From: a virus
Virus record (IMG/VR): IMGVR_UViG_3300043587_000032
Location: 1-61,315 of that record
DNA length: 61,315 nt
Direction: 5' to 3' (one strand)
This document shows, one piece after another, positions 29,943 through 61,315 of this stretch. Positions within the stretch are counted from its first letter, which is position 1. Each line of letters starts with the position of its first letter. The notes beneath the pieces were generated by a model that was not told the DNA's origin, searched no databases, and saw only the letters and a list, made by a program, of their open reading frames with translations. A program made the position numbers and the translations under genes.

Positions 29943-29972
29943 AATCTATCCCCCCAAAGTGGGGGGTGTCAA
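29943..29972 (-). promoter_or_regulatory. Operator-promoter (consensus form)
   Basis: -35 TTGACA, an 18-base spacer with C6/AAAGT/G6 arms, -10 TAGATT, six bases to ATG 29936. Identical to the site at 31946-31975. Confidence 0.88.
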
Positions 29973-40342: not shown

Positions 40343-40573
40343 TCAGTCCTTGCCCTTGTGGCCCTTGTCAAACAGGGCGCGTCCGGCTGGCGTGGCACGC
40401 ATGATGTTCGTCGCGAGCCCGGCCGCCATCTTCACCGGCACGCCTTCCTTGACCAGCGCCGCGCGCAACGTCGTCCACGGGTGCGCCGCTCCCATATACC
40501 GGGCCGACCCCTTGGGGCCGATCCAGTACTTCCAGAGCGCCGACCCGCGGCCGTACGGCAGCTTGCTGGCTAG
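40343..40573 (-). CDS. Small conserved head-region protein with unclear start
   Basis: About 75 codons (ASKLPYGRGSALWKYWIGPK, then HPWTTLRAALVKEGVPVKM) of the kind often found directly after the capsid protease in actinophages. No ATG, GTG or TTG occurs in frame near the protease stop: the nearest are a GTG at 40693 inside the protease gene and an ATG near 40498. It may start at a CTG, be reached by frameshifting from the protease gene, or start at 40498. Confidence 0.5.
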   Translation of the reverse strand, partial: LASKLPYGRGSALWKYWIGPKGSARYMGAAHPWTTLRAALVKEGVPVKMAAGLATNIMRATPAGRALFDKGHKGKD

Positions 40574-42735
40574 CTCCTCACCGGGAAAGGGCGCATCAGC
40601 TCTTCCAAGGCAATGCCTCGCTCCAGCTCCAGCGCGAGTGACGACTTCTCCGTGCCGAGCTTGTCCGGCGCGGCCTCCGGCGAGCGGCCCCACTGCCCAA
40701 GCAGGTCACCGAGCTTCGCCGCCACACGGGTAGCGAGCTCGTCGTAGTCGATCCCGCCGGGCCCGAACGCGATCGCCGGACGGGTCGCACCGGCCGCGGT
40801 CATCGCCATCGGGACACCCGACGCTACGCGCGCCCTGGTAACCGGGTAGCCCGGGGTGTTGACCGAGAGCACCGCCACCATCTCGAGGTGCCCGCCGTAG
40901 TTGCGCCAGTCGCCGGACGGCGCCGCGGCCAGCAGGCGCGCACGGTCACGCTCAGACAGCTCGGGGTCGATCGCCCCGGCGATCCAGATGCCGAAGGTGT
41001 CCTCCCCTGCCGCCACGTCGGCCGCGTTGGTGCCGGTGTTGTCGTAGTGCGCGACGGTGTCGGCGGCGTTGGCGGACAGTTCGGCGTGCCCGGTGTCCAT
41101 CGTGAGGTGGCCGACGGCGACCGTGCGGCGTGCACCTTCGTCGTCGAGGGCGAAGCGGGCGCCGGTCATGAAGTAGGCGTAGTCGGTGCCCGAGCGCGGC
41201 GGCGGCGTGCACTGGCGTGAGATGCCGATGTGGCAGGTGCCCCACGTTGCGATGTGCCCGAAGATCTGGCCGGTGTCCGGGTCGATCTGGAGCGGCGTCG
41301 GGCCGTCGAGCTTCGGGTCCTCGAACCAGGCGACCGGCGGCAGTTCGGCGAGCTTCTTCTTCAGGAAGTCCGGCTTGCCCTTGGCCTTCGTCTTGGTCTT
41401 CGGGTCATCTTCGTCGTCAGCCTTCTTCGCCTTGGCGTTCTTCAGGAACTGCGGCGGGATCTTGCCGAACTCCTCGACCGCACACGAGAGGCAGTCGTCT
41501 CCGAGCTCGCTCGCGGAGAACGCGGCCGCGGTGATGGTCGCGACGCCCTTGGACTCGAGCAGGGCGCGCAGCTTCTCGAGCGTGTCGGCGGCGGCCAGCT
41601 CCTCCGCGGGCATGCCGGGGCGCGAGCCGTCGATCTCGACGTACGCGTCGGGGAATGCCGGGATGGCGCACAGGGTGGTGGCAGCGATGACGCCCTTGGA
41701 CACGGCCGTCTGGGTGGTCTCTTCGCCGTCCTCGCCGTAGGTCACGTCCTCGACCCAATCGAGCTCCGAGAGATCCACCGAGTTGCCGGTGAGGTAGCCC
41801 TTCGCGGCGAGCTTGCCGCCGACGGACTCGGGGTCGGCGGTGCCGCGTCCCTGCCAGACGAAGGTGCCTTCCGGGAGTGGCTCACCGGTCTGCTTCGAGA
41901 TGAACTCGGGGCCGGGAATCTTCCAGGCTTCGTCGAGCTTGCCCATGATCTCGGCTTTGGCGTGTCCGCCGTCGCTGCCCGGGTTGACGGTCTGCGCGAG
42001 GATGCTGATGGGCAGTGCCCTGGTGGTGAGCGCGCCGGGGTGGATGAACCGGCCGTCAGCGGTGGCCTTGCCCTCGACGGCGAGGCAGGGGAAGAAAAGC
42101 TGGAGCTCGCCGTCCTTCTCGGTGACGACCGGCGTCGCGGTCTCCGTGCTGGTCATCTCCATCACTCCGTTTCCTGCGTACCTCGAGGGCGGCGTCATGT
42201 CGCCCGCCTGGTCGTCGCCCCACCCGGTCAGCGGGAAGTCGTGATCCTTGCCTGCCAGTGCCAGCCGGACCGTGGAGAAGCGCGCCGTGCCCTTCGCCTT
42301 GGGGAGGGTGGTCTCCGGCAGTTCGTACCCGGCGCAGATGTGCGGCGCCCACGGCTCGAACTGCTTCGGGTAGCGGCCGGTGCCGAGCACCGACACTCCA
42401 ATATCACGGGCGTACTGGTTCGCGTCCTGCATGGCGAAGGTCGGCGTCAGCGTGGTGTTCGTCGAGGGCTTGTGCTTGCCGTCCGGCCCGCCGTCGCGAT
42501 TCCAGATCGCCGGGCCCATGATCTGCGCCTCGATCGGCCCCAAGTTGGTGGCCATCCGGGCGACGCGCTCGATGAGCTCCTCGCGGGTGGCATCGTCGAG
42601 GTCGGTCACGTCGTCACCGAGGAACACCAGGGTGCAGTGGATGACGCCGGTGGGATCCCCTCCGGGCACGGTGAACTGGCCAGGCGAGTCCGGGATAAGG
42701 GCGATCATGCCGCCGGTCTGCACGTCGTCAGCCAC
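40570..42735 (-). CDS. Capsid maturation protease fused to a 2H phosphoesterase-like domain
   Basis: A 721-aa protein. Residues 1-185 look like a 2H (LigT/2-prime-5-prime ligase) domain: HCTLVFLGD with His 33 and Thr 35, and PHICAGYELP with His 132 and Cys 134 where Ser/Thr is usual. Residues about 205-400 are prohead protease-like (FFPCLAVEGKATADGRFIHP, GGHAKAEIMGKLDEAW). The rest (about 470-690) is a second structural region with EDPKLDGPTPLQIDPDTGQI and GHIATWGTCH. It should process the capsid scaffold. Confidence 0.75.
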   Translation of the reverse strand: MADDVQTGGMIALIPDSPGQFTVPGGDPTGVIHCTLVFLGDDVTDLDDATREELIERVARMATNLGPIEAQIMGPAIWNRDGGPDGKHKPSTNTTLTPTFAMQDANQYARDIGVSVLGTGRYPKQFEPWAPHICAGYELPETTLPKAKGTARFSTVRLALAGKDHDFPLTGWGDDQAGDMTPPSRYAGNGVMEMTSTETATPVVTEKDGELQLFFPCLAVEGKATADGRFIHPGALTTRALPISILAQTVNPGSDGGHAKAEIMGKLDEAWKIPGPEFISKQTGEPLPEGTFVWQGRGTADPESVGGKLAAKGYLTGNSVDLSELDWVEDVTYGEDGEETTQTAVSKGVIAATTLCAIPAFPDAYVEIDGSRPGMPAEELAAADTLEKLRALLESKGVATITAAAFSASELGDDCLSCAVEEFGKIPPQFLKNAKAKKADDEDDPKTKTKAKGKPDFLKKKLAELPPVAWFEDPKLDGPTPLQIDPDTGQIFGHIATWGTCHIGISRQCTPPPRSGTDYAYFMTGARFALDDEGARRTVAVGHLTMDTGHAELSANAADTVAHYDNTGTNAADVAAGEDTFGIWIAGAIDPELSERDRARLLAAAPSGDWRNYGGHLEMVAVLSVNTPGYPVTRARVASGVPMAMTAAGATRPAIAFGPGGIDYDELATRVAAKLGDLLGQWGRSPEAAPDKLGTEKSSLALELERGIALEELMRPFPVRS

Positions 42736-52034: not shown

Positions 52035-52499
52035 TCAGAAGTCGAGAACGTCGAGCGTCGCGGCCAGGCGTCCCGCGAAGTACTCACGGGTGAGCTCCAG
52101 CGCCTCGACGGTGCTGACGTACCACGCGGGCTGCGTGCGGTTCGCCCACTCGGCAACCAATCGCGCATTGGCCTCGGTGATGGCCACCTTCGCCAAAGCG
52201 GTGGTGGCTTCGTAGCCTTCCGCGCGGCGGGTGTCGATCACGCGCCAGTTCTCGCCGGTCTCGCGCTGCCAGAACGGGAGCTCCTGAACGCTGTAGCCGG
52301 TGGCGAGCGAGTGGCAGTGATCGGTGTTGCGGGCGTCGCACTCGCGCTGCGCGGCGGCCCGGTCGAAGTGAACGGCTACCCGCTGGTTGGTGACGTTGTC
52401 GAGAACCCGGTACTCGGTGCGGCCGGTCTGCGCGTTGGTCATCCACTCGACCGTGAAGCACTGGTTGCGGTCCTGAGCGGTGATGGTGGTGTTCGACAT
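52035..52499 (-). CDS. Hypothetical protein
   Basis: A 154-aa protein with an alternating strand/helix pattern (FTVEWMTNAQTGRTEYRVLD onward) and ECDARNTDHCHSLATGYSVQ in the middle. GGAGGCC precedes the ATG; the promoter gives a leader of about 30 bases. Single-gene transcript. Function unknown. Confidence 0.62.
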   Translation of the reverse strand: MSNTTITAQDRNQCFTVEWMTNAQTGRTEYRVLDNVTNQRVAVHFDRAAAQRECDARNTDHCHSLATGYSVQELPFWQRETGENWRVIDTRRAEGYEATTALAKVAITEANARLVAEWANRTQPAWYVSTVEALELTREYFAGRLAATLDVLDF

Positions 52500-52537: not shown

Positions 52538-52567
52538 AATCTATCCCCCCAAAGTGGGGGGTGTCAA
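52538..52567 (-). promoter_or_regulatory. Operator-promoter (consensus form)
   Basis: TTGACA, an 18-base spacer with C6/AAAGT/G6, TAGATT. Here the start codon is about 37 bases from the -10, so the mRNA has a normal leader with a ribosome site. Confidence 0.87.
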
Positions 52568-52623
52568 GGAAAACCTTCGCGGCAGGGGTATGAATCTGCG
52601 GCGTGTCTCCCCCTCGGCTCTAT

Positions 52624-52649
52624 CCCCCCAGGTTGGGGGGCCCTATCCT
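52624..52649 (+). promoter_or_regulatory. Operator and rightward promoter of the translocase module
   Basis: C6/G6 arms at 52624-52640, then TATCCT as -10; six bases later the ATG at 52656 begins, so the message is leaderless. The -35 is poor. It lies about 55 bases from the leftward operator at 52538-52567, and both probably respond to the same factor. Confidence 0.65.
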
Positions 52650-52655
52650 GAGCGC

Positions 52656-52865
52656 ATGAAGATACGAACCGCAATCGCAATTGCAGGGCTCACCCTGCTG
52701 GCGATCAACCTCATCGCGGGAGTCTCGATGCTCGCGGTCTGGATCATCGCCACCTACGCCGCGCACCTCCCCGTTCGGGACTACGTCGGCCGCCGGACCG
52801 GATTCGCCCGAGTCGATCTCATCGAGCCCACTGAGACCGTCGAGACCGCTGAGATCGGAGACTGA
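52656..52865 (+). CDS. Small membrane protein, first gene of the translocase module
   Basis: A 69-aa protein. One long or two short hydrophobic segments (IAIAGLTLLAINLIAGVSML, AVWIIATYAAHLPV) followed by a charged C-terminal tail. The start is fixed by the leaderless promoter. Three bases separate it from the DUF2637 gene. Small membrane proteins (Spd type) accompany TraB in actinomycete plasmids. Confidence 0.65.
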   Translation: MKIRTAIAIAGLTLLAINLIAGVSMLAVWIIATYAAHLPVRDYVGRRTGFARVDLIEPTETVETAEIGD

Positions 52866-52868
52866 CCA

Positions 52869-53690
52869 ATGCGCCTGCCCACGCTCCCCGTAACCCGCCT
52901 TCGGCTGTTCGCCACCCTGCCGGTTGCGTCCGCCGCCATCATCTCGTTCGACTCGGTCCGCCACCTTGCGGAGTCCGCCGGGTTCGGACCGCTCGCGTGG
53001 CTCTTCCCGCTCACCATGGACGCCGCCGTGGCGTTCGGTACGGACCTGTGGATTCGGCGAAAGCAGTCCGCCGCGATGAGCAAGGCGCGCGCACTCGCGC
53101 TCACCGTCATGGCCGGGTCGCTGGTCGCGAACACCGTGGACCACTACATGACCGGATCGATCCTGGGCGGTCTGCTGGGGGCGGTCCCGCCGACCGTGCT
53201 CGCCTGGATGTTGCTGGTCCTGCATCAGCACGGTCTAGGCGAAGCGGACCAGGATGCACCGGACCAGACAGACCGCTTCTCTGGTCCCGGACCGGTCGCC
53301 ATCTCCTACACGGTCCCGCGGTTCCTTGCGGTCCCGCGGTCCACGGTCCACGTCGAATCGGACCGCGCCATGGACGCGACGGTCCGAGAACTGGTCCAGA
53401 TCGTCCGGACCGACGGCGAGCCCGGTCCGGTCCCGAACTGGGAGAAGCCGGACCGGACCGGGCCACTGCCGCAGCCGCGTAAGCGGACCAGCGCCGCCCG
53501 GACCCCCGCCACCACGGTCCGGCGGTCCGCCACCGCGAAGGCGCCCGAGGACCGCGAGATCGTCGCGTGGATCTCGGACCAGCCGACGGCGCCGACCAAG
53601 CAGCAGATCATGGACCGCTACCCGATCGGGTCCGGGCGCGCCTTGCGCCTGCGGACCGCCGCCACCGCGAAGGAGTCGACCGATGAGTAA
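52869..53690 (+). CDS. DUF2637 (SpdB-like) membrane protein with C-terminal DNA-binding-like tail
   Basis: A 273-aa protein. Residues about 10-120 match DUF2637: ASAAIISFDSVRHLAESAGF, GPLAWLFPLTMDAAVAFGTD, and further TM helices (VMAGSLVANTVDHY, VPPTVLAWMLLVLHQHGLGE). Residues 125-230 are low complexity and the last 45 (KQQIMDRYPIGSGRALRLRT) form a helix-turn-helix-like end. Such proteins sit beside TraB in conjugative actinomycete elements and form or regulate the transfer pore. The gene is rich in GGWCC words after 53216. Confidence 0.77.
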   Translation: MRLPTLPVTRLRLFATLPVASAAIISFDSVRHLAESAGFGPLAWLFPLTMDAAVAFGTDLWIRRKQSAAMSKARALALTVMAGSLVANTVDHYMTGSILGGLLGAVPPTVLAWMLLVLHQHGLGEADQDAPDQTDRFSGPGPVAISYTVPRFLAVPRSTVHVESDRAMDATVRELVQIVRTDGEPGPVPNWEKPDRTGPLPQPRKRTSAARTPATTVRRSATAKAPEDREIVAWISDQPTAPTKQQIMDRYPIGSGRALRLRTAATAKESTDE

Positions 53691-54430
53691 GGGCAAGCAG
53701 CAAGGCGGTGCGCTCGATATCGCCGCCGGTGCGCTGATGGCGAAGTTCTCCATCTGGGCACTGGGCAAGCTCGGCAAGGGCACCCGCCGCCTGGTCTTCC
53801 GGTGGCGGCGGGCCATCTCGCCGGTCCTGTTCGCCGGTCTCGTGTTCCTGCTCGCCGTGGTCCTGCGCGAGACGGTCCCGTGGCTTTGGTGGACCGCCGC
53901 GGTGCTGCCGGTCTGCGGCGGTCTGCTCGCCTACTTCGGACCGGTCCTGTCCGAGAGGTGGTCCGGTCTGGTTACGCGGCTGGTCCCGGCTGGCTTGGAC
54001 CGCGGCCGTGACGGCGTGCTGGACCGCCCGGTCGAGCGGATCTATCTCGCCGCGATGCTCACCACCATCGGGACCTACCTCGCGGTCCGGTGGGGTTTCG
54101 GTCCGAGCGAGTTCACCGGGTGGACCTGGAAGATCGGTCTGCTCGTGTTCGGCGGGTCCTGGTGGTACCACCGCCGCATCCGGACCGCCGGTCGCGCGGA
54201 CCGCGTTGCGAAGCGCTGGACCAAGTTCACGCGGTCCGACACGTGCCCGGCGAACCTGAAGCCGCTCGTCGGGTCCAAGGTCCTGAGTGCGACCGGCGAG
54301 GGTCGCAACTCGGTGCTGAAGGTCCGGGTTGCCGACGCCGGGACCGCCGCGAACGTCGAGCGTCTTGGCAACCCGCTCGCGGCGTATTTCAAGATGCGGC
54401 CGGGCTCGGTCCACATCAAGGGCGACATGG
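53216..54430. repeat. GGWCC-rich segment
   Basis: About 50 GGTCC/GGACC pentamers were counted by eye in about 1.2 kb, versus roughly five expected at this G+C and only two or three in the remaining 1.1 kb of the translocase gene. They fall in more than one codon phase and spread over two genes. Candidate DNA-recognition or transfer signal. Confidence 0.7.
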
Positions 54431-55596
54431 TGGACGCCGGGGTGGCCTGGTTCACCTTCATGCCGAAGGACCCGTGGTCGGGCAAGATCCCGCACCCGAT
54501 GCCCGAGCCGGGCTCGATCTCGCTGAAGTCGACCCGCGGCCGGTTCAAGATGGGGGAGCTCGCGAACGGCGACGACCTGATCTATCAGCTCCAGCACACC
54601 TTGGCCGTCGGCATGAACGGGTCCGGCAAGTCGATCTGGCTGCACGCGCTCATGGCCTGGCTGGTCGCCTGCTCGGACTGTCTGGTGGTCGCCATCGATA
54701 TGGCCGGTGGCGCGACTCTCACCGTGTGGCGTAAGGCGTTGAGTCTGCCCCTTGCGACTGACCTGGATTCGGCGATGGTGGTGCTGAACTCGGTGTTTGC
54801 GGTGATCGCGGATCGCGAGCGCCAGCTTGGCGTGGCTTCCGAACTCGATGATGACGCGGCCGACTCCTTCGAGCCGACGCGGGAAACGCCGTGGATGGTG
54901 TTGATCATCGATGAGTTCCCTGACCTGCTCGCGGAAGCGAAGACGGCCGGGGTCGAGAAGCAGGTGATCACCCTGCTCGGCCGGATCGCGAAGAAAGCCC
55001 GCAAGTGCGGAATCCGGCTGTTCTTCGCCAGCCAGAACGGCACCAAGGTCGACCTGGGCTCGAAGGAGCTTCAGGCGCAGCTCAGGGCCATTGTCGGACT
55101 CCAGCTCGACGTGCAGCAGAGTAAAAACCTGTGGGGCGAGCAGATGCGCATGGGGTGGAACTCGACGATCCTCCAGTCCGGACAGTTCCTGCTGAAGGAC
55201 GACGAACACACCATGCCCGCGATCGCGAAGGGTCTCTTCGTCGAGATGAAGGAGCGCCGCGAGCAGGCCAATAAGGCCTCTGAGCTGCACAAACAACTGG
55301 AGCCGTCAGCCAATGCCGCCTTGATCGGCATGGCGGGTTCATACCTGCCGCCGGAGATCGTGGTGCCCGCCGAGCCCGGCGATCCGATCCTGGAGTACCT
55401 GGCCACCGTCGATGGCACCGGCGCGCGGGCGGCCGACATCGTGGACCTAGTGCCCGGCGTGGGCTCGAAGGCCACCGTCTTCCGGCGGCTCGGGCGGCTG
55501 AAGGAGGAAGGGCTTGCGCACTCGCGCGGCGGCGTGTGGCACGCGGGGCCGGACACGCGTAACCCGCAGGACCGCGCGGACGAGTCCGCGGCGTAG
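53683..55596 (+). CDS. FtsK/SpoIIIE/TraB-like DNA translocase
   Basis: A 637-aa protein. Two pairs of TM helices (about 43-85 and 113-160) precede a RecA-like motor with Walker A GMNGSGKS (about 311-318), Walker B WMVLIIDEFPDLL (about 405-417) and a following FFASQNGTKVDLGSKELQ. A C-terminal winged helix (about 575-625, ARAADIVDLVPGVGSKATVF) is like the DNA-reading domains of FtsK and TraB. The layout fits plasmid TraB, which moves double-stranded DNA between mycelial cells. It overlaps the DUF2637 gene by 8 bases. Confidence 0.85.
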   Translation: MSKGKQQGGALDIAAGALMAKFSIWALGKLGKGTRRLVFRWRRAISPVLFAGLVFLLAVVLRETVPWLWWTAAVLPVCGGLLAYFGPVLSERWSGLVTRLVPAGLDRGRDGVLDRPVERIYLAAMLTTIGTYLAVRWGFGPSEFTGWTWKIGLLVFGGSWWYHRRIRTAGRADRVAKRWTKFTRSDTCPANLKPLVGSKVLSATGEGRNSVLKVRVADAGTAANVERLGNPLAAYFKMRPGSVHIKGDMVDAGVAWFTFMPKDPWSGKIPHPMPEPGSISLKSTRGRFKMGELANGDDLIYQLQHTLAVGMNGSGKSIWLHALMAWLVACSDCLVVAIDMAGGATLTVWRKALSLPLATDLDSAMVVLNSVFAVIADRERQLGVASELDDDAADSFEPTRETPWMVLIIDEFPDLLAEAKTAGVEKQVITLLGRIAKKARKCGIRLFFASQNGTKVDLGSKELQAQLRAIVGLQLDVQQSKNLWGEQMRMGWNSTILQSGQFLLKDDEHTMPAIAKGLFVEMKERREQANKASELHKQLEPSANAALIGMAGSYLPPEIVVPAEPGDPILEYLATVDGTGARAADIVDLVPGVGSKATVFRRLGRLKEEGLAHSRGGVWHAGPDTRNPQDRADESAA

Positions 55597-59969: not shown

Positions 59970-61315
59970 GTTCTCCTCATCATCGAACCGAGCCGCTCGA
60001 GGTTCACCGACTCCTGACTTTGCCGCGTCGGCAACGTGCCCTGTGCCGGGTTCAAACTGGGCTCGCCCTGGTTTGCCGAGAGTTGATCGATGGCGTGCAC
60101 CGCGGCGTCCATCCGGTCCGGCGAATCCTGCGACTCCTGCCACGCCACCATCTGATGCACGAGCTCCATGAAGAACCCCACGTGGTGCACCTTGCCGGTC
60201 TCGTGCAGCGGCGCCACCATCTGCGCGCGGAACGACTTGGAGCCGCGGGCGGTGAACCCCCTGATCGGGATTCCGGCCTCGGTCAGGCGCATCACCTTCG
60301 GGACGTGTGGCCATAGCTCTTTGAGGCCCCTCTCCATCGCCAGCACGTCTTCGGCTTCGGCGTCATCACGGCACAGTGCTTGGGTGGCTTGCTGGAGCAG
60401 GACTCCGTCAGGCAGCTTCGGCCAGGCCTTTAGGTTGCCTTGCAGCTGGTAGAGCTTCAGGGCTTCGCGACGCACGTCCTTCCAGGCCTGCTTCGCCGAT
60501 CGCCGCAGGCCGGACAGGGAACGCTCGTAGCGGATCGCGGTGGCGTCGTACTCGAACGCGGCGATGTGCGCAGCGCGGAACCAGGACGCCACGGACATGT
60601 GGCCGGACTCGTCGGCGAGGATGTAGTAGTGGCTGTCGATACCGCGGCCAGCCACGATGATGCCCGCTTCGTCGCCGTCGCCTTCGTTGTCGGCCGGGTC
60701 CACGAAGACCTCGGTTTTGAGGAGCTCGGGCGCTGCCTTGACGCGGTGGTTGTTGATCCACGCGAGCTTGAACACGCCACCGGCGGGCGGGTGCGGATCG
60801 GCCTGGTAGAGCGCCGACCAGAACCGCTCACCTACGCGGCGCTCAATGTCCTTCCAGTCCTCCGGCGTGCGGCGGCGGGTCGAGTTCAGGTACTCGCCGG
60901 GCTCCCGCCCGAGGGCGTCGTTCTTCTTTGCCTGCGCCGGGATGATCAGGTGGTGGAAGTCAGGCGTCAGGGCGAGGCCGTCTTGCCGCATGAGGTAGCC
61001 CATGAGGTCGTCTTCGTGCCATCGGGTGCCGATGATGATCACGATCGCGCCGGGGGACAGGCGGGTGGTGGCCACGGCCTGGTACCAGTCGAGGATGTGC
61101 TTACGCTGTTCCGCGCTGTCCGCCTGCTTCGAGTTCTTCACCGAGTCGTCGATGATCATCACGTCAGCGGATCGACCGGTGAGCGCGCCACCCACGCCGA
61201 CCGCGACCATCCCGCCGTTGCGGCGGCCCGGCCCGTCAATCAGGTTCCAGTTCGTCTGCTGCGCACGGTCGGGGTCGAGGATCAACCCGAGGTGGTCATC
61301 CTGGTTCCGGTGGAA
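59966..61315 (-). CDS. terL: Terminase large subunit, C-terminal part (gene split by window ends)
   Basis: This continues the gene at 1-565 (circle joined at 61188/1). It holds the Walker B ADVMIIDD (about residues 197-203 of 595), the coupling motif IVIIIGTRWHEDDLMGYLMR and the RNase H-like nuclease domain starting at VFVDPADNEGDGDEAGIIV (about 330), with further acidic residues in the C-terminal third. All parts of a working packaging motor and headful or cos nuclease are present. Confidence 0.93.
   Translation of the reverse strand, partial: FHRNQDDHLGLILDPDRAQQTNWNLIDGPGRRNGGMVAVGVGGALTGRSADVMIIDDSVKNSKQADSAEQRKHILDWYQAVATTRLSPGAIVIIIGTRWHEDDLMGYLMRQDGLALTPDFHHLIIPAQAKKNDALGREPGEYLNSTRRRTPEDWKDIERRVGERFWSALYQADPHPPAGGVFKLAWINNHRVKAAPELLKTEVFVDPADNEGDGDEAGIIVAGRGIDSHYYILADESGHMSVASWFRAAHIAAFEYDATAIRYERSLSGLRRSAKQAWKDVRREALKLYQLQGNLKAWPKLPDGVLLQQATQALCRDDAEAEDVLAMERGLKELWPHVPKVMRLTEAGIPIRGFTARGSKSFRAQMVAPLHETGKVHHVGFFMELVHQMVAWQESQDSPDRMDAAVHAIDQLSANQGEPSLNPAQGTLPTRQSQESVNLERLGSMMRRT
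61189..61315. repeat. Terminal direct repeat, right copy
   Basis: Identical to bases 1-127; see the left copy. The reading frame of the terminase runs unbroken through the joined circle. Confidence 0.95.

Follow-up and report, generated by a model that had tools for sequence, protein, structure and literature searches.

An intragenic GGWCC palindrome array in the DUF2637/TraB-like module of a tailed phage genome

What would a tailed phage do with a membrane module of the kind found in actinomycete conjugative plasmids? The question is raised by the genome of a soil phage, IMG/VR record IMGVR_UViG_3300043587_000032, studied here at its full length of 61,315 bp (the window), in which a module of three plus-strand open reading frames (ORFs) at 52656-55596 lies amid minus-strand neighbors. 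A first-pass annotation made from the sequence had described these ORFs as an operon of a small membrane protein, a DUF2637 membrane protein and an FtsK/TraB-like motor with a C-terminal winged helix, and ORF calls, profiles and AlphaFold models all bore this description out. The most informative part of the locus had gone unmentioned, namely a dense array of GGWCC palindromes inside the DUF2637 and motor genes. We consider it very probable that the module has the anatomy given below and that the array is a selected DNA element.

52656..52865, plus strand: small membrane protein, 69 amino acids (ORF; similar short membrane ORFs stand here in most relatives)
52869..53690, plus strand: DUF2637 membrane protein, 273 amino acids (PF10935, AlphaFold)
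53544..53687, plus strand: stretch of the DUF2637 gene coding for its C-terminal helix-turn-helix (HTH) (alignment of 18 relatives)
53216..54341, no strand: intragenic GGWCC array (word counts, codon shuffle)
53683..55596, plus strand: TraB-like DNA translocase of FtsK/SpoIIIE type, 637 amino acids (profiles, AlphaFold, Foldseek)

The array stood out by every count that we made. Between 53230 and 54310 there were 46 GGWCC words, whereas the rest of the window predicts 3.8, phage-wide codon use about 13, and synonymous codon shuffling within each gene 19.7 (z = 8.9). When all 5-mers were scanned in all 1-kb segments, GGACC/GGTCC at 53.25 kb formed the top cluster of the genome, with a log-likelihood ratio of 67.5, and the next unrelated word reached 13.7. 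No other 1.09-kb coding block of the window exceeded a z of 4.9 for any word. The array spans the 3' part of the DUF2637 gene, which encodes the linker and the HTH, with a peak density of 54.5 per kb in the disordered linker. From there it continues through the membrane part of the motor gene, its 5' third, and ends before the motor domain, where the density of 5.5 per kb equals the codon-shuffle expectation. A KOPS-like polarity was rejected, as GGACC occurred 22 times and GGTCC 24 times, and no helical phasing of the sites was found.

Relatives of the module allowed this element to be followed across diverged genomes. The operon, whose occurrence in related phages the first-pass annotation had left to be checked, is kept in phage contigs: the DUF2637/motor pair was found in about 20 other IMG/VR contigs, with motors mostly 44-60% identical. 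Many of these contigs are phages of ~60 kb, among them seven of 58-63 kb in which a portal gene was present as well. A linear Streptomyces plasmid showed the gene order small ORF, DUF2637, large ORF, FtsK. Loci L029 and L030 have an extra gene of about 144 codons (phrog_17260) between the small membrane and DUF2637 genes, at 4089-4520 in L030. Loci L035 and L036, which also hold the pair, lie on contigs of 49 kb and 155 kb, in which neither the TerL nor the portal families of the ~60-kb phages gave a match.

The corresponding position held a GGWCC array above the codon-shuffle level in 11 relatives (L029, L030, L031, L037, L038, L039, L042, L044, L053, L055 and L056), although the proteins are 45-60% identical. 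Diverged genomes had between roughly one third and two thirds of the site positions in common, which indicates turnover. Nevertheless, sites were clearly better retained than control 5-mers matched in composition. For example, 24 of 29 and 30 of 34 sites were retained in two comparisons, against control fractions of 0.64 and 0.61, and in further pairs 16 of 25 and 16 of 34 were retained, against 0.33 and 0.22.

The palindrome itself was not the same in all clades. In L043, L054 and L070 the word was GGTAC in place of GGWCC, L057 used GGCAC plus some GGTAC, L040 showed a weak mixture, and several GGWCC arrays carried additional GGTAC. These differences followed the recognition helix of the DUF2637 HTH. 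Proteins with the GGWCC word had GSGRALRL, GSNRALKI or GSDRALRI, that is, GS(G/N/D)RALxL/I, whereas those with GGTAC had GTNRAGNI or GTARAGRI (GTxRAGxI). GSSRATKI was found with GGCAC, and GAPRWTKI with no array. The Mantel correlation between word and DUF2637 helix was 0.59, and it stayed at 0.46 (P = 0.004) as a partial correlation given the TraB helix. Locus L070 was fetched after this rule had been noted. Its helix, GTGRATTI, pointed to GGTAC, and 45 GGTAC were indeed counted in 2 kb, compared with roughly six over the remaining 10 kb, although its TraB helix is quite different. Conversely, the TraB helices are almost identical between L053 (GGWCC) and L054 (GGTAC). In L030, the membrane domain of the DUF2637 protein has been replaced, yet the HTH and the word GGWCC are the same. 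These observations are strong, but not conclusive, evidence that the word tracks the DUF2637 recognition helix, since the independent clades are few.

Profiles and predicted structures gave the architecture of the two larger proteins. The DUF2637 protein matched PF10935 with an E-value of 7e-9 (36.2 bits, above the gathering cut-off of 22.8). Its AlphaFold model has predicted membrane helices at 8-36, 40-63, 69-95 and 98-127, then a long disordered linker and a three-helix HTH (228-237, 244-250 and 255-272), for which the predicted local distance difference test (pLDDT) was mostly >90. According to the alignment of 18 relatives, the recognition-helix region is GSGRALRL, residues 254-261. The DUF2637 proteins of the set were too variable to give a useful joint search profile. 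Cultured phages searched with the DUF2637 protein of the window gave no match, and those searched with the L037 protein gave A4-type mycobacteriophages only. In L031 (5349-6419), an HNH-endonuclease-like domain is apparently inserted in the DUF2637 linker. The small 69-residue membrane protein had no family match in the profile search.

The motor matched PF01580 (FtsK_SpoIIIE, E = 1.5e-9) and has a Walker A motif GMNGSGKS and a Walker B motif VLIIDE. Its best NCBIfam match was the plasmid TraB family NF041214 (E = 2.7e-13), with 49 bits compared with 32 for EccC and 26 for FtsK, and no Pfam match to FtsK_4TM, FtsK_alpha or FtsK_gamma was obtained at E-values up to 1. The TraB affinity proposed earlier is thus favored over chromosomal FtsK, a placement based on profile scores. 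We describe the protein as TraB-like and do not file it as TraB. Its AlphaFold model combines long N-terminal membrane helices (hydrophobic helices within 11-64, 66-88, 116-139 and 143-182, at low to moderate confidence) with an FtsK-type motor modeled at high confidence and, at the C-terminus, a winged helix (H-H-H-E-E, 568-621, pLDDT about 80). The winged-helix region matched HTH profiles in the motor of the relative L043. Foldseek retrieved FtsK motor crystals (E = 2.5e-18) and the conjugation protein TcpA (E = 3e-13). Binding of a clt site and intercellular movement of double-stranded DNA by this motor are putative functions. A defense-system identity was rejected, as it gave only generic ATPase matches (HerA-type and similar).

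The genome around the module is that of a tailed phage, as indicated by genes for TerL, portal, major capsid and tape measure proteins; a portal gene was also present in the seven related records. Endolysin, DnaB, an Erf-like annealing protein and a single-stranded DNA-binding protein were identified as well. The gene at 40570-42735 encodes a portal/protease-type protein whose N-terminal stretch resembles phrog_2659 (RNA ligase). The first and last 127 bp of the record are identical (1-127 = 61189-61315) and the TerL frame crosses the join; therefore, the genome is complete, with 61,188 bp, and circular or circularly permuted. The record is classed as linear despite this exact overlap. The claim that a full virion gene set surrounds the module thus holds, and for a complete genome. 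The closest cultured capsids and terminases, 35-38% identical, were from actinobacterial phages, and a DNA-level search of cultured phages with this genome gave no match. Genome contigs searched with the window protein and with A1 contained no relative and no prophage copy, and so gave no pointer to the host. A search of 11 records (this genome and ten related ones) found neither an integrase of the tyrosine or serine type nor ParA; the ParA-type partition ATPase (PF13614) that would mark a pZL12-type plasmid-phage is thus absent from all 11. This lack is compatible with an extrachromosomal prophage as well as with a lytic phage.

The module had also been placed under a phage operator, and this held as far as could be judged, the palindrome directly upstream being one of about 22 operator-type palindromes that occur at gene starts genome-wide. 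Two candidate operators lie ahead of the module:

52545..52561, no strand: operator palindrome CCCCCCAAAGTGGGGGG, upstream of the divergent minus-strand gene 52035-52499
52621-52640, no strand: operator palindrome TATCCCCCCAGGTTGGGGGG, containing CCCCCCAGGTTGGGGGG at 52624..52640, directly upstream of the module

Comparable palindromes precede the module in relatives G001, G002 and G005. The general form was (T)ATCCCCCC-spacer-GGGGGG, for example at 29951, 31954, 33185, 52546, 52625, 57095 and 59427, and it was also found in relatives. These palindromes probably mark a genome-wide phage regulon with a putative repressor.

How might these parts work together? The module may be a membrane DNA-translocation station of the actinomycete-conjugative-plasmid kind. 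The DUF2637 protein would be its anchor, held at the membrane by four helices, and the HTH on its flexible linker would bind the GGWCC palindromes within its own and the next gene. The array would gather the phage genome at the membrane and load a TraB-like hexamer, which would pump double-stranded phage DNA, presumably in an extrachromosomal state, through a septum or cell junction. In this way, no lysis would be needed for the circular phage genome to pass from one compartment or cell to another, or into daughter cells. We give this mechanism as a whole a little less than an even chance. Gene content, domains, the HTH, the conserved array, the retention of sites and the association of word and helix are direct observations; spread, transfer and partition as outcomes are not separable by sequence. 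A broader proposal, that such loci form a class of self-linked cis sites in which a membrane HTH protein and a palindrome array in its own and the motor gene co-evolve, switch words and spread tailed phages without lysis, is possible but on balance unlikely. Several observations weigh against a translocation station. In L035 and L036 the two genes are present but the array is missing, which shows that the module does not depend on it. The link between word and DUF2637 helix is partly confounded by clade: the word also correlated with the TraB helix (r = 0.47, partial 0.24, P = 0.02). GGWCC has no polarity, in contrast to the direct-repeat TRS of pSVH1 and to FtsK's KOPS, which are polar. Besides, neither ParA nor integrase was found in the genome, and the motor, at 49.3 bits, is far below the curated TraB cut-off of 800 (NF041214).

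Other functions can be proposed for the same parts. In partition instead of transfer, the array would be a centromere-like element bound by the DUF2637 protein, and the motor would clear or sort an extrachromosomal prophage at the division septum. Dense site arrays resemble other centromeres, a plasmid prophage without ParA and integrase would need a stabilizer, and in pIJ101 SpdA2 and its palindromes affect segregational stability, not transfer (PMC4170104). However, ordinary partition needs no TraB-type motor and the plasmid state is putative, and we regard partition as rather unlikely. A role during infection (DNA entry, positioning of the genome for replication or packaging, or superinfection exclusion) would agree with the operator, which the module has in common with many phage genes, with the frequent occurrence of distant FtsK-like motors in ~130-kb Streptomyces phages, and with the lone DUF2637-like protein that adjoins the integrase in A4 mycobacteriophages. 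It is nevertheless doubtful, because neither of these phage proteins accounts for an intragenic array and because profiles place the motor with plasmid TraB, the ~130-kb phage motors matching over the motor domain only.

The array may also be selected and yet be read by another factor, such as the TraB winged helix (as a clt of TRS repeats), terminase (as a pac site) or a host protein. The correlation of the TraB helix with the word would be expected in the first case, and Streptomyces clt can overlap traA (PMC3583192); for terminase, TerL is about 4-5 kb away. On the other hand, the L053/L054 pair and L070 separate the word from the TraB helix, and the terS-like gene at 1160-1759 is ~8 kb off round the circle, which makes another reader improbable. 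Finally, inherited codon bias or low complexity of the linker might have produced a merely compositional array, whose densest part does fall in the disordered linker. This reading is already disfavored and hardly credible: the array exceeds the within-gene codon shuffle and is unmatched by other blocks, it continues into the TraB membrane region and is absent from the motor part, its sites are retained above control, and other clades use different palindromes.

The array offers a handle on the role of DUF2637/Spd-type membrane proteins and on a possible plasmid-style pumping of phages, with sharp predictions as to which HTH binds which palindrome. A cis-acting site can hide in conserved coding sequence, where only codon-controlled word counting finds it, and the same scan is applicable to other mobile elements. 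In the literature covered, mostly papers outside subscription, no description was found of so large a palindrome array within genes, or of a switch of its word.

Several known systems resemble the module in part. A phage with a conjugation-type motor is already known, namely pZL12 (cited in PMC3583192). Besides its virion gene set, this Streptomyces plasmid-phage (NC_013420) likewise has an FtsK protein of conjugation type (gp071), with a membrane protein nearby. However, it has 90 kb with ParA, ParB and an integrase, of which ParA and integrase were not found here, gp071 is only remotely similar to our motor (HHalign E = 4e-9), and gp073 is not DUF2637. No comparable array was found in pZL12, in the plasmid loci L048, L049 and L063 or in phage Tomas, and the array was therefore rejected as a general trait of conjugative loci. 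The ~130-kb Streptomyces phages Tomas and Samisti12 are also tailed phages with an FtsK-family motor; these motors are 27-31% identical over the motor only, with no DUF2637 gene annotated alongside and no array. In mycobacteriophage LHTSCC, the membrane part of gp35 is 37% identical to the L037 DUF2637 protein, but gp35 has 138 amino acids and no FtsK gene alongside, adjoins the integrase and is annotated as an excisionase. Such stand-alone proteins occur in mycobacteriophages such as LHTSCC and Eagle (L064 3947-4363, L065 3920-4363), and their excisionase label (PHROG 733) looks doubtful.

Closer parallels come from actinomycete plasmids. TraB of pSVH1 has the same membrane N-terminus, FtsK motor and C-terminal winged helix, whereas the clt/TRS direct repeats of TraB plasmids, known clt being short, mostly intergenic repeats, were not recognized here. 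In pSVH1, the membrane protein SpdB2 interacts with TraB and shows non-specific DNA binding (PMC4170104). In pIJ101, the palindromes bound by SpdA2 lie within the spdA2 coding sequence; of these sps sites, one variant has a central base inserted. SpdA2 affects plasmid stability and, unlike the DUF2637 protein, is not described there as a membrane protein (PMC4170104). In our case, the array inside the DUF2637 gene is observed and its binding by the DUF2637 protein is predicted. A conjugation-type motor in a phage is not new, but the array is. pIJ101 has 2-3 sites of 12 bp, compared with ~46 of 5 bp here, and the array described here also covers the motor gene.
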